Notes under the pieces: model-generated
Told to the model about the DNA's origin: nothing
Database searches by the model: none
Seen by the model: the letters and a program-made list of their open reading frames with translations, nothing else
Shown: positions 33,978 through 37,844 of the stretch, one piece after another
How positions within the stretch are numbered: position 1 is the stretch's first letter
Layout of the letters: every line of letters starts with the position of its first letter
Translations under genes and position numbers: made by a program
Assembly: GCA_958295805.1 (NCBI GenBank)
Contig: OY282373.1
Location: 2,637,001-2,701,000 of the forward strand
Length of the DNA stretch: 64,000 nucleotides
Direction of reading: 5' to 3'
From: an uncultured Nitrospirales bacterium
Lineage (GTDB): Bacteria > Nitrospirota > Nitrospiria > Nitrospirales > UBA8639

Positions 33978-35189
33978 TTACGAGGAAATCTCTTGGGACT
34001 CCACGGTTTCTCCAGAGACAACGCCGGGCTTCTCTTCCGGCGCGCTTTCGTCTTCCGTGTCCGACGGCGTCTCTCTTGGGGCGTCATGTTCGAGTTGCGC
34101 CGCAGTTTCTTCCGCTAAGACGGCTTTTATTTCTCGTTCACGCTCAAGTTTTTCTTTCTCATACTCACTGGCGCTGATGATATCAATCTTCCATCCCGTC
34201 AATTTGGCGGCCAGTCTGACGTTTTGCCCATTTTTCCCGATGGCCAACGAAAGTTGAGAATCCGCCACCACCACCAGGGCCGCCCTTTTTTCTTCATCAA
34301 TGCCGACTTTCTCGATCGAGGCCGGATTCAACGCCTCACCAATAAACACGCGCGGGTCGCTGGTCCAGGGGATGATATCAATCTTCTCCCCTTTGAGTTC
34401 CCGCACAATCGCCTGAACCCGGGACCCCTTAATGCCAACGCACGCCCCAACGGGATCCACGGCTTTGTCTCGAGAAGAAACCACAATCTTCGTGCGATCT
34501 CCTGGTTCGCGCACGACACCCTTAATCTCGACAATCTTTTCCGTAACCTCCGGGACCTCCAACTGAAAGAGTTTCACCACAAACTGAGGATGCGCTCGGG
34601 ACAGGATCACGTGAACGTCTTTGAGCGTCCGACGAACTTCCAACAGCAACGCTCGGATTCGATCTCCTCGTCGATGTGCCTCCCGCGGGATTTGCTCATT
34701 GACCGGCAATAAGGCTTCGGTCTTGCCGATTTCGACCAGATAATTTCGCCGCTCCTGTCCTAAGATGACCCCGTGAACCAACTCTCCCTCCCGCTTCGAA
34801 TACTCCTGCTCCACCGCTTCCCACTCTGCTTCCCGAACTTTTTGGCAAATCACTTGTTTCGCCGCCTGCGCCGCAATTCTGCCGAATTCTTCCATTTCGA
34901 TGAGAGACCCGATTTCATCACCCAATTCGGCCTCCGCGTCAATCTCACGAGCTTCAGCCAATGAAATCTGAGAATTGGCGTCGGTGATCGTTTCGGCAAT
35001 GGTCTTTAAGGAGACAATCGAAATGTCACCCGTGTCAGGGTCGATTTGCACTTGAATGTTTTCATTGTTGCCGTACCGTTTTCTGGCAGCGGTCAGCAGT
35101 GCGGACTCTATGGCCGCCAGTACCCGATTTTTGTCAATCCCCTTTTCCCGCCCGACTTGCTCAATGACTGCCATCAATTCACGCTTCAT
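33978..35189 (-). CDS. nusA: transcription termination/antitermination protein NusA
   Basis: RNA polymerase-associated elongation factor. 403 residues: N-terminal polymerase-binding domain (to about 130), S1 (about 135-200), KH1 and KH2 (about 230-345, with GVKGSRVQAI-like CVGIKGSRVQAIV and LAIGKNGQNVRLAAKLTGW), and an acidic tail. The AR2 repeats of E. coli NusA are absent. The ATG follows GAGGAG six bases upstream. NusA is a known autoregulator of this operon in E. coli (family knowledge); a terminator in the leader here fits that. Confidence 0.96.
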   Translation of the reverse strand: MKRELMAVIEQVGREKGIDKNRVLAAIESALLTAARKRYGNNENIQVQIDPDTGDISIVSLKTIAETITDANSQISLAEAREIDAEAELGDEIGSLIEMEEFGRIAAQAAKQVICQKVREAEWEAVEQEYSKREGELVHGVILGQERRNYLVEIGKTEALLPVNEQIPREAHRRGDRIRALLLEVRRTLKDVHVILSRAHPQFVVKLFQLEVPEVTEKIVEIKGVVREPGDRTKIVVSSRDKAVDPVGACVGIKGSRVQAIVRELKGEKIDIIPWTSDPRVFIGEALNPASIEKVGIDEEKRAALVVVADSQLSLAIGKNGQNVRLAAKLTGWKIDIISASEYEKEKLEREREIKAVLAEETAAQLEHDAPRETPSDTEDESAPEEKPGVVSGETVESQEISS

Positions 35190-35222
35190 CGTCACTCCTC
35201 TTCTTGCCTACCCTGCAATGGA

Positions 35223-35272
35223 GAGACCTTTGCAAAAATCGAATGAGCCACTGCTGGAAACCTCCCCTTCAT
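35223..35272 (+). repeat. left arm of ~50-bp inverted repeat flanking rimP
   Basis: Starts GAGACCTTTGCAAAAATC and matches the reverse complement of 35941-35990 at about 45 of 50 positions, with the first 25 bases identical. It lies in the rimP-nusA gap. Confidence 0.88.
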
Positions 35273-35299
35273 CACGGTCGGCCGCCGTCGCACGTTGCG

Positions 35300-35773
35300 T
35301 TACCATTCAATTTCTCGCTTGGCCTGAGCAATCGCATCCCACTGAACGTCCATCCGTCCGTGGGTTCGTGATTTTCTAGTTTGAATCTGAAGCGTAATGC
35401 CTTGCTCCGTGGTCCCGATCAACCGACCAATAAACGTCCAGTTTCCATTGACGGGGTGAAGGACTTTTACCCGAATGGTACGCCCCACGGCCCGTTGATA
35501 GTCTTTACGCTGCTTCAACGGACGATCAAGACCCGGGGAAGAGACCTCAAGACGATAGGAATGGGGAATCGGGTCAGCCACGTCAAGCGCTCGACTGAGC
35601 GAATGGTGACACTGCTCACAATCCTCAATCCCGACGCCTCCCTCTTTATCGACGATCACCCGAACGATGGTGTTGCCCCCCTTGCCGTGACACTCAACTG
35701 CGACAACGTCCAGGCCGAGGGCCAACGCAATGGGCTCGGCAATATGATGGACTTGGCTCCCCAGATCATTCAC
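35300..35773 (-). CDS. rimP: ribosome maturation factor RimP
   Basis: 30S assembly factor, 157 residues with the GTG chosen here. HHIAEPIALALGLDVVAVEC, VRVIVDKEGGVGIEDCEQ and LEVSSPGLDRPLK are the family signatures, and the C-terminal Sm-like domain follows. The frame is open much further upstream (to 36055) but crosses a terminator hairpin and a repeat. The GTG at VNDLGSQVHH has GGAG eight bases upstream; another GTG lies 6 bp before it. First protein gene of the nusA-infB operon, and enclosed by the ~50-bp inverted repeats. Confidence 0.9.
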   Translation of the reverse strand: MNDLGSQVHHIAEPIALALGLDVVAVECHGKGGNTIVRVIVDKEGGVGIEDCEQCHHSLSRALDVADPIPHSYRLEVSSPGLDRPLKQRKDYQRAVGRTIRVKVLHPVNGNWTFIGRLIGTTEQGITLQIQTRKSRTHGRMDVQWDAIAQAKREIEW

Positions 35774-35821
35774 GCCCACGGCTCCATGCCTTATTGGGAT
35801 GGTTCGGGGAAACAACAAACC

Positions 35822-35846
35822 AAAAAAAAGTGGGCTCTCGCCCACT
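35822..35846 (-). terminator. intrinsic terminator/attenuator in the rimP leader
   Basis: On the minus strand: stem AGTGGGC / GCCCACT, tetraloop GAGA, then seven T residues. It lies between tRNA-Lys and rimP, about 50 bp before the rimP start, so it would stop tRNA transcripts and could attenuate the rimP-nusA-infB operon. Confidence 0.8.
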
Positions 35847-35859
35847 TCACCGCCACGAC

Positions 35860-35888
35860 ACCATATCATGTCGCAACCCCAAAGACAA
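35860..35888 (-). promoter_or_regulatory. putative promoter upstream of the rimP leader terminator
   Basis: Minus-strand TTGTCT, 17-bp spacer, TATGGT. Transcripts would start just before the hairpin at 35822-35846. Confidence 0.38.
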
Positions 35889-35940
35889 GGCCTTGTATAA
35901 ATGCACTCCCTTTCACCGTGACTCTCTTCCCGGGTCAGGT

Positions 35941-35990
35941 GTGAAGGGGAGGTTTTTAGCAGGAACTCATTCGATTTTTGCAAAGGTCTC
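35941..35990 (-). repeat. right arm of ~50-bp inverted repeat flanking rimP
   Basis: Reverse complement reads GAGACCTTTGCAAAAATC and continues in step with the left arm at 35223-35272. Both arms have GAGACC at the outer end, giving a 768-bp bounded block that contains rimP. Confidence 0.88.
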
Positions 35991-36080
35991 ACTAGGGCGA
36001 GGGAACCTGAATTGGATGGATCCCCTCTGGGATTTTGGTGGTGGGAAATAGGCACAAGGGGAAAATAGTATCGGAATGAA

Positions 36081-36156
36081 TGGTGAGCCGCCTCGGGCTC
36101 GAACCGAGGGCCCTCGCCTTAAAAGGGCGATGCTCTACCAACTGAGCTAGCGGCTC
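36081..36156 (-). tRNA. tRNA-Lys (anticodon UUU)
   Basis: Minus-strand cloverleaf: acceptor stem GAGCCGC / GCGGCTC, D arm GCTCAGTTGGTAGAGC, anticodon stem TCGCC/GGCGA around CTTTTAA (UUU), T-loop TTCGAGC, discriminator A and encoded CCA. It heads the rimP-nusA-infB gene run in the position held by a tRNA-fMet gene in E. coli. Confidence 0.95.
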
Positions 36157-36253
36157 ACCCGAACGGGATGCTAACAACCGGTCTGATGGTTGTCAAACGT
36201 GTGAACTCGCTCAATCCACGTGAAGAATACACTCAACGTATGTCCTGAAACCA

Positions 36254-37582
36254 TCAGGCACTCATTTTGGAGAGTTTGCCGCGAGGACGCGTCGACGTCA
36301 TGGGGTTTCTGAGCATAATGGTATGTTCTCGATGGGACCCCGTAGAGACGAGATCAATGGGACACGAGGTGAGTTCTTCAATGCGCCGCAGATAGCGCCT
36401 GGCTTCCACGGGCAACGCTTTGTAGGAGGTCGTCCCGCTCGTTGTCCCGGACCAGCAAGGGAGCACTTCATACACGGGTTCGCAATTCGTGAGGACATCC
36501 ACGTCAGCGGGCATGTCGCGATACAGTTTTCCTTCATACCGATACCCCACGGCGATTTTGAGTTCCGGGGCCCCGTCCAGGACGTCCAGTTTGGTGACGG
36601 CCAGCGAGGTGCAGCCATTGACCCGAACGGCGTAGCGCAGCACCATGGCATCCAGCCATCCACATCGACGCTCTCGGCCGGTGGTCGCACCAAATTCCTG
36701 CCCCCGCTCCTGTAACCCACTGCCCACCTCGTCCACCAGTTCCGTGGGGAAGGGTCCACTGCCTACGCGGGTGGTATAGGCTTTGGTCACCCCCAACACC
36801 GCGTCAATTTTCGTTGGCCCCACGCCACTCCCCGTACAGGCACCGCCAGCCGTCGCATTCGAGGACGTCACAAAGGGATACGTCCCAAGGTCCACGTCAA
36901 GATGCGTACCCTGGGCACCCTCAAACAGCACGCGACTTCCATTCTCCATGGCCTTATGGATAAACAGAGAATCATCAACAATGTGACCTCTGAGGCGATG
37001 GGCATACTGATCGTATTCTTCGCAGATGCGAGCGGCGTTGAACCCTCGAGTCCCGTAGACGTGACGAAGAAAATTGTTGATTTCCACTAAATTACATTCC
37101 ACCTTTTCTCGAAAGACCGCGGGATGCAGAAGGTCTCCGACTCGAATCCCGACCCGGGCCATTTTATCCACGTAGGCCGGCCCGATTCCTTTGCCGGTGG
37201 TCCCAATGCGACGAGCCCCCTTCGCTTTTTCCGCGGCTTTGTCAATGGCCTTATGATACGGCAGAATCAGATGCGCCCGTTGACTGATCGCCAGATTGCG
37301 TCCCACCTTCATTCCTCGGGACGCCAATTGGTCCAGTTCTCCAATCAATGCCACGGGGTCGATGACGACTCCGTTTCCCAGAACACATTGTTTTCCCCTG
37401 CCCAAGATTCCCGATGGAAGCAAATGGAAAATAAACGTGCCCTTTTTTGTGACCACCGTATGTCCCGCATTGGATCCGCCCTGGAACCGCACAATGACAT
37501 CGGCCTCATGAGCCAGGATATCCACAATCTTGCCCTTACCTTCATCTCCCCACTGTGATCCGATCACCACTAAATTTCCCAT
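36254..37582 (-). CDS. purA: adenylosuccinate synthetase
   Basis: GTP-dependent first step from IMP to AMP. 442 residues with GDEGKGK at 12-18, GGSNAGHTVV, TGKGIGPAYVDK and DGAPELKIAVGY. Length is slightly above the 430 norm through a C-terminal Arg/Lys tail (TRPRGKLSK). The ATG start opens directly on MGNLVVIGSQWGDEG, the family N-terminus. Expressed alone from a promoter-like sequence upstream. Confidence 0.96.
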   Translation of the reverse strand: MGNLVVIGSQWGDEGKGKIVDILAHEADVIVRFQGGSNAGHTVVTKKGTFIFHLLPSGILGRGKQCVLGNGVVIDPVALIGELDQLASRGMKVGRNLAISQRAHLILPYHKAIDKAAEKAKGARRIGTTGKGIGPAYVDKMARVGIRVGDLLHPAVFREKVECNLVEINNFLRHVYGTRGFNAARICEEYDQYAHRLRGHIVDDSLFIHKAMENGSRVLFEGAQGTHLDVDLGTYPFVTSSNATAGGACTGSGVGPTKIDAVLGVTKAYTTRVGSGPFPTELVDEVGSGLQERGQEFGATTGRERRCGWLDAMVLRYAVRVNGCTSLAVTKLDVLDGAPELKIAVGYRYEGKLYRDMPADVDVLTNCEPVYEVLPCWSGTTSGTTSYKALPVEARRYLRRIEELTSCPIDLVSTGSHREHTIMLRNPMTSTRPRGKLSKMSA

Positions 37583-37812: not shown

Positions 37813-37844
37813 GATGACAGAGAAGGCATTTTGGCAAAGGTCTC
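37813..37844 (-). repeat. GAGACC dispersed repeat copy
   Basis: The minus strand reads GAGACCTTTGCC, then AAAATG, then CCTTCTCTGTCATC. It matches the plus-strand copy at 40607 at most positions. Lies 40 bp downstream of panB. Confidence 0.72.

Follow-up and report, generated by a model that had tools for sequence, protein, structure and literature searches.

The window, a stretch of 64,000 nucleotides from the genome of an uncultured Nitrospirales bacterium, carries rimP in the minus-strand order purA, tRNA-Lys, upstream repeat arm, promoter-like hexamers, leader terminator, rimP, downstream repeat arm, nusA and infB. The rimP product has the Pfam RimP N- and C-terminal domains, and the nusA ATG lies at 35187–35189; the genes that we call purA, nusA and infB are presumed to be these from their sequences. 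The features are listed below.

35223–35271, plus strand: downstream arm, a solo MITE-type end with its TIR (GAGACCTTTGCAAAA, 35223–35237) toward nusA; called from the inverted repeat, the TIR family and the spacer
35300–35779, minus strand: rimP, GTG start at 35777–35779 and TAA stop at 35300–35302; read as a native gene
35822–35847, minus strand: terminator-like hairpin of the rimP leader followed by a T run, kept in the genus; called from alignment and fold
35860–35888, minus strand: promoter-like hexamers TTGTCT-N17-TATGGT; called from alignment, with a putative function
35942–35990, minus strand: upstream arm, a solo MITE-type end with its TIR (35976–35990) toward tRNA-Lys; called from the inverted repeat, the TIR family and alignment
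36081–36156, minus strand: tRNA-Lys(ttt), a conserved upstream neighbour
37830–37844, minus strand: a third TIR of the family in the window (GAGACCTTTGCCAAA, one mismatch), between purA and the next gene

The two arms are inverted, 49 nt each, 90% complementary and separated by 670 nt. They match at 44 of 49 positions, which is the best ungapped 49-bp inverted match in a 1201-bp region; 12 mononucleotide shuffles of this region gave 27–32 of 49. In a search of the bacterium's own genome the arms pair with each other at E = 1.2e-12, and GAGACCTTTGCAA is exact at the outer end of each. The downstream arm falls within the 110-nt rimP–nusA spacer, and the upstream arm has tRNA-Lys on one side and the rimP promoter on the other. 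The initial annotation had described inverted arms of about 90% identity at 35223–35990, bounded by GAGACCTTTGCAA and enclosing rimP with its GTG start, leader terminator and promoter, and this description is accurate, coordinates included. An Rfam search of 34000–37500 returned tRNA and one match far under its gathering score and nothing else, and a search of plasmid DNA with 35900–36050 found no match.

The ends of the arms belong to a family spread over the 2.9-Mb genome. GAGACCTTTGCAA occurs exactly in 24 places (one for the reversed-pattern control). GAGACCTTTGCAAAA is found in 51 places with at most one mismatch (control, 0) and in 90 with at most two (control, 9); 89 of these 90 were used in the conservation, flank and partner analyses, position 2677607 being outside the stretches used. 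At the one-mismatch threshold, the 40 relatives have 0–2 places per genome, with any at all in only 10 of them, indicating that the family is lineage-specific. Across the 51 aligned ends, bases 1–15 are each conserved at 86–100% and base 16 falls to 33%, so we take the TIR to be 15 bp long. An opposing partner (at most three mismatches, within 450 bp) is present for 18 of the 51 ends and for none of the control, giving elements with total lengths of 37–346 bp. The other 33 ends have no such partner; solo ends are therefore the rule, the rimP arms included. Neither the 49-bp arms nor the two-ended copies are long enough to hold a transposase. Target-site duplications (TSDs) longer than 1 bp were seen at two of 17 outward-facing pairs genome-wide (5 and 7 bp), these pairs having been picked by hand with longer overlapping pairings excluded. 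Judged from its shared TIRs and short copies, the family is a lineage-specific, MITE-like one, in which some copies are two-ended and most are solo ends.

The bases just outside the TIR are also biased. At positions −13 to −6, at least seven of eight bases are pyrimidines (CTCTCCC-like) in 28 of the 51 ends, against a background of 5%, and T at −4 together with A at −2 is found in 13 of the 51, also against 5%. The tract and the T/A bases likely reflect a target preference.

The closest known counterpart is ISNme1 of Neisseria meningitidis, an IS5-family element whose TIR is printed as GAGACCTTTGCAAAA / TTTTGCAAAGGTCTC in Table 2 of PMC4596501 and which is proposed there as the parent of the ATR MITE. 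The comparison with ISNme1 and ATR covers the TIR, where all 15 of 15 bases are identical, and the copies in our genome are likewise short and without a transposase (PMC4596501). They differ in that no transposase with such ends was found here, the interiors are varied and the host is a Nitrospirales bacterium. The BrickBuilt MITE of Porphyromonas gingivalis has TIRs that match the first 12 bases exactly or nearly so and, as described in PMC4596501, many of its copies have one TIR or none and its TSDs are irregular or missing. However, BrickBuilt contains 23-nt tandem repeats (PMC4596501), whereas the rimP arms have none. In the matching part of PMC5070880, the 13-mer lies only inside a primer. 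Among literature on Nitrospira and 'miniature inverted-repeat', judged by title, there was nothing on such a family. By its TIR, the family here resembles ISNme1-type MITEs, and it is this resemblance that would point to mobilisation of the IS5 type.

No parent element came to light. The initial annotation had suggested a genome search for full-length elements or an IS with these ends; this gave the 51 TIR ends, some of them in two-ended copies, but no transposase flanked by such ends turned up in the genome. PF13340 and PF13586 had no matches in it, and none of the three PF01609 matches is surrounded by a pair of family ends in the stretches read. A transposase relic at 1728459–1729398 (PF01609, DUF772), about 0.3 kb from a AAGACCTTTGCAAAA end, was considered as the parent IS and rejected. 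For a second copy (L152), the 3.5 kb read contain no such end; the relic presumably is of the IS1182 type. Separately, a 2610-bp block at 723541–726150 is bounded by perfect GAGACCTTTGCAAAA ends and flanked by a 5-bp TSD (AATCA). The 411-aa ORF inside it has no Pfam match and so is no transposase known to Pfam; the block may be related to the small elements as a large, cargo-carrying form. At 820079–822708, three TIR copies surround a repeated region that encodes an HTH_38/rve transposase, which we take to be IS30-like.

At rimP, each arm comprises one TIR and 34 bp, and the inner TIR is absent. No opposing TIR was found near either arm, the best candidate having six mismatches, indicating that neither arm is a complete element. 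The arm interiors (bases 16–49) match each other at 29 of 34 positions (score 48). The next-best copy, at 405845, reaches a score of 28 against the arm interior, the same as the best of 5000 shuffled controls. By this comparison, the rimP arms form a subtype of two copies, found only at the rimP locus among the copies compared. The initial annotation had also proposed looking for TSDs. None was seen at the solo arms, whose flanks were judged by eye, and around the 768-bp block the flanks CCCTGCAATGGA / ACTAGGGCGAGG share 1 bp only.

We then compared the locus with those of relatives. A 64-nt query including the upstream arm matched the bacterium's own genome alone (one of 41) and none of the 40 relatives. 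Arms kept at the same place in distant relatives, which the initial annotation would have read as a conserved RNA structure, are thus not seen. In 13 same-genus genomes rimP–nusA is kept and the arms are absent. rimP has one match in each of 36 of the 41 genomes; loci from 30 of these 36 were examined, and nusA directly follows rimP in 30 of 30. Among the same-genus relatives, tRNA-Lys is upstream in 12 of 13 and purA in 11 of 13, the missing cases being L037 and L039, where the contig ends. In trees of RimP and NusA (30 sequences), both sequences from the window belong within the genus, branching at or close to its base. The shared synteny, together with rimP grouping with the genus as nusA does, argues that rimP is a native gene inherited in place and is not the cargo of an element. 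The closest RimP, from another uncultured Nitrospirales bacterium (OX638327.1), is 73% identical. The rimP–nusA spacer is 55–71 nt in 11 of the 13 same-genus relatives, 216 nt in the other two and 110 nt here, and the excess over 55–71 nt is close to the length of one arm. With relatives at this distance, the exact insertion junctions are those suggested by the spacer length.

The sequences between the arms also appear to be inherited. The hexamers (35883–35888 and 35860–35865, spacer 17) align with a conserved CTTGCCT..ATGATAAG block of the relatives. Six relatives without arms (of the 13 in the genus; the other spacers were read by eye) have sequences that align with this promoter-like block and with the terminator AAGTGGGC..GCCCACTTTTTTTT, indicating that both predate the arms. 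The fold of 35815–35890 has a z-score of −4.3. Between the upstream arm and the −35-like hexamer there are 53 nt. The suggestion that an element had re-made the rimP promoter can therefore be set aside.

In two of the relatives, G009 (L039) and G011 (L044), the rimP–nusA spacer of 216 nt contains another, unrelated element, an inverted repeat whose ends are of the GGAACCTCTGATT type, inserted at different points of the spacer. Like the downstream arm, this short inverted-repeat element was inserted in the rimP–nusA spacer (2 of 13 relatives), but it has another TIR, and its ends (at most one mismatch) number 323 in G009, 171 in G011 and 0 in the genome of the window. That a second, unrelated element occupies this spacer suggests that it is a tolerated landing site. 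Several GGAACCTCTGATT-type places in G003 and G009 have a contig start about 40 bases away, and this repeat therefore seems to break assemblies. In a third relative (L036, G010), tRNA-Lys and rimP are 581 nt apart, whereas the other measured relatives have 149–244 nt here; the inserted sequence resembles the tail end of what we presume to be a PIN-domain toxin gene.

The arms are very probably two solo non-autonomous remnants of about 49 bp, from a MITE-like family whose ends are of the ISNme1/IS5 type and which multiplied in this lineage. These remnants would have landed in opposite orientation in the two spacers flanking the native rimP. An IS5-type transposase, not found in the genome now, may once have mobilised the family in trans. 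The layout of two nearby opposite insertions, one of the two offered by the initial annotation, agrees with the genome-wide TIR family and the lack of arms in relatives; the other, a non-autonomous transposon enclosing rimP, is not supported, given the place and history of the gene in the genus and flanks with no TSD beyond a 1-bp match. The arms are far closer to each other than to other copies. As far as can be read from the sequences, the first arm was therefore probably the source of the second, through a local hop or an inverted duplication within the locus, and the two would not have landed independently.

Two fully independent landings of one element subtype would differ from this explanation only in the origin of the second arm, and we regard them as unlikely. 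Such landings fit with the abundance of solo ends (33 of 51 without a partner at up to three mismatches and 450 bp) and with a rimP–nusA spacer that tolerates another MITE in 2 of 13 relatives. However, this subtype has two copies and is unseen among the other copies compared, and it would take a strong coincidence for it to arrive twice within 1 kb.

A function of the arms in RNA is much less probable still. Here the arms would pair in transcripts that read through from tRNA-Lys and form a long stem around rimP; cleavage by RNase III might then separate tRNA, rimP and nusA. The 768-nt RNA does fold with an arm–arm stem in both the MFE and the centroid structure (z −12.4 against 20 shuffles), but any such inverted repeat would fold likewise, and when each arm is folded alone it does no better than shuffled sequence (z 1.98 and −0.20). 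Relatives lack the arms, and TIR copies recur about 50 times elsewhere. Moreover, the main rimP transcript would presumably not include the upstream arm, which precedes the conserved promoter block. A shade more doubtful is the idea that the sibling arms make the tRNA-Lys–rimP–nusA stretch a lineage-specific RNA-processing or inversion switch. If so, the arms would fold in read-through RNA, or recombination would flip rimP with its promoter, and the linkage of rimP and nusA expression would change.

Least credible of all is the insertion into the operon of a single 768-bp non-autonomous transposon with 49-bp TIRs and rimP as cargo: the TIRs do face outward, the 90% identical arms closely bound rimP and their subtype is found at this locus only, but we reject it since synteny (an unchanged position across the 13 same-genus genomes, beside nusA in 30 of 30 loci) and both trees show that the gene is not foreign to the site, the promoter and leader terminator of the relatives align inside the arms, the TSD match is no longer than 1 bp and each of the 36 genomes with rimP has a single match.

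For the two solo remnants, neutrality is most likely, because neither arm disrupts the promoter, the terminator or the sequence immediately before the nusA start; no functional change for the operon is indicated. The repeat around rimP is ordinary MITE-like debris whose one small oddity is the pair of sibling arms. Species of this genus differ in their load of short elements, and the locus illustrates that transposon debris can mimic a gene-carrying transposon.
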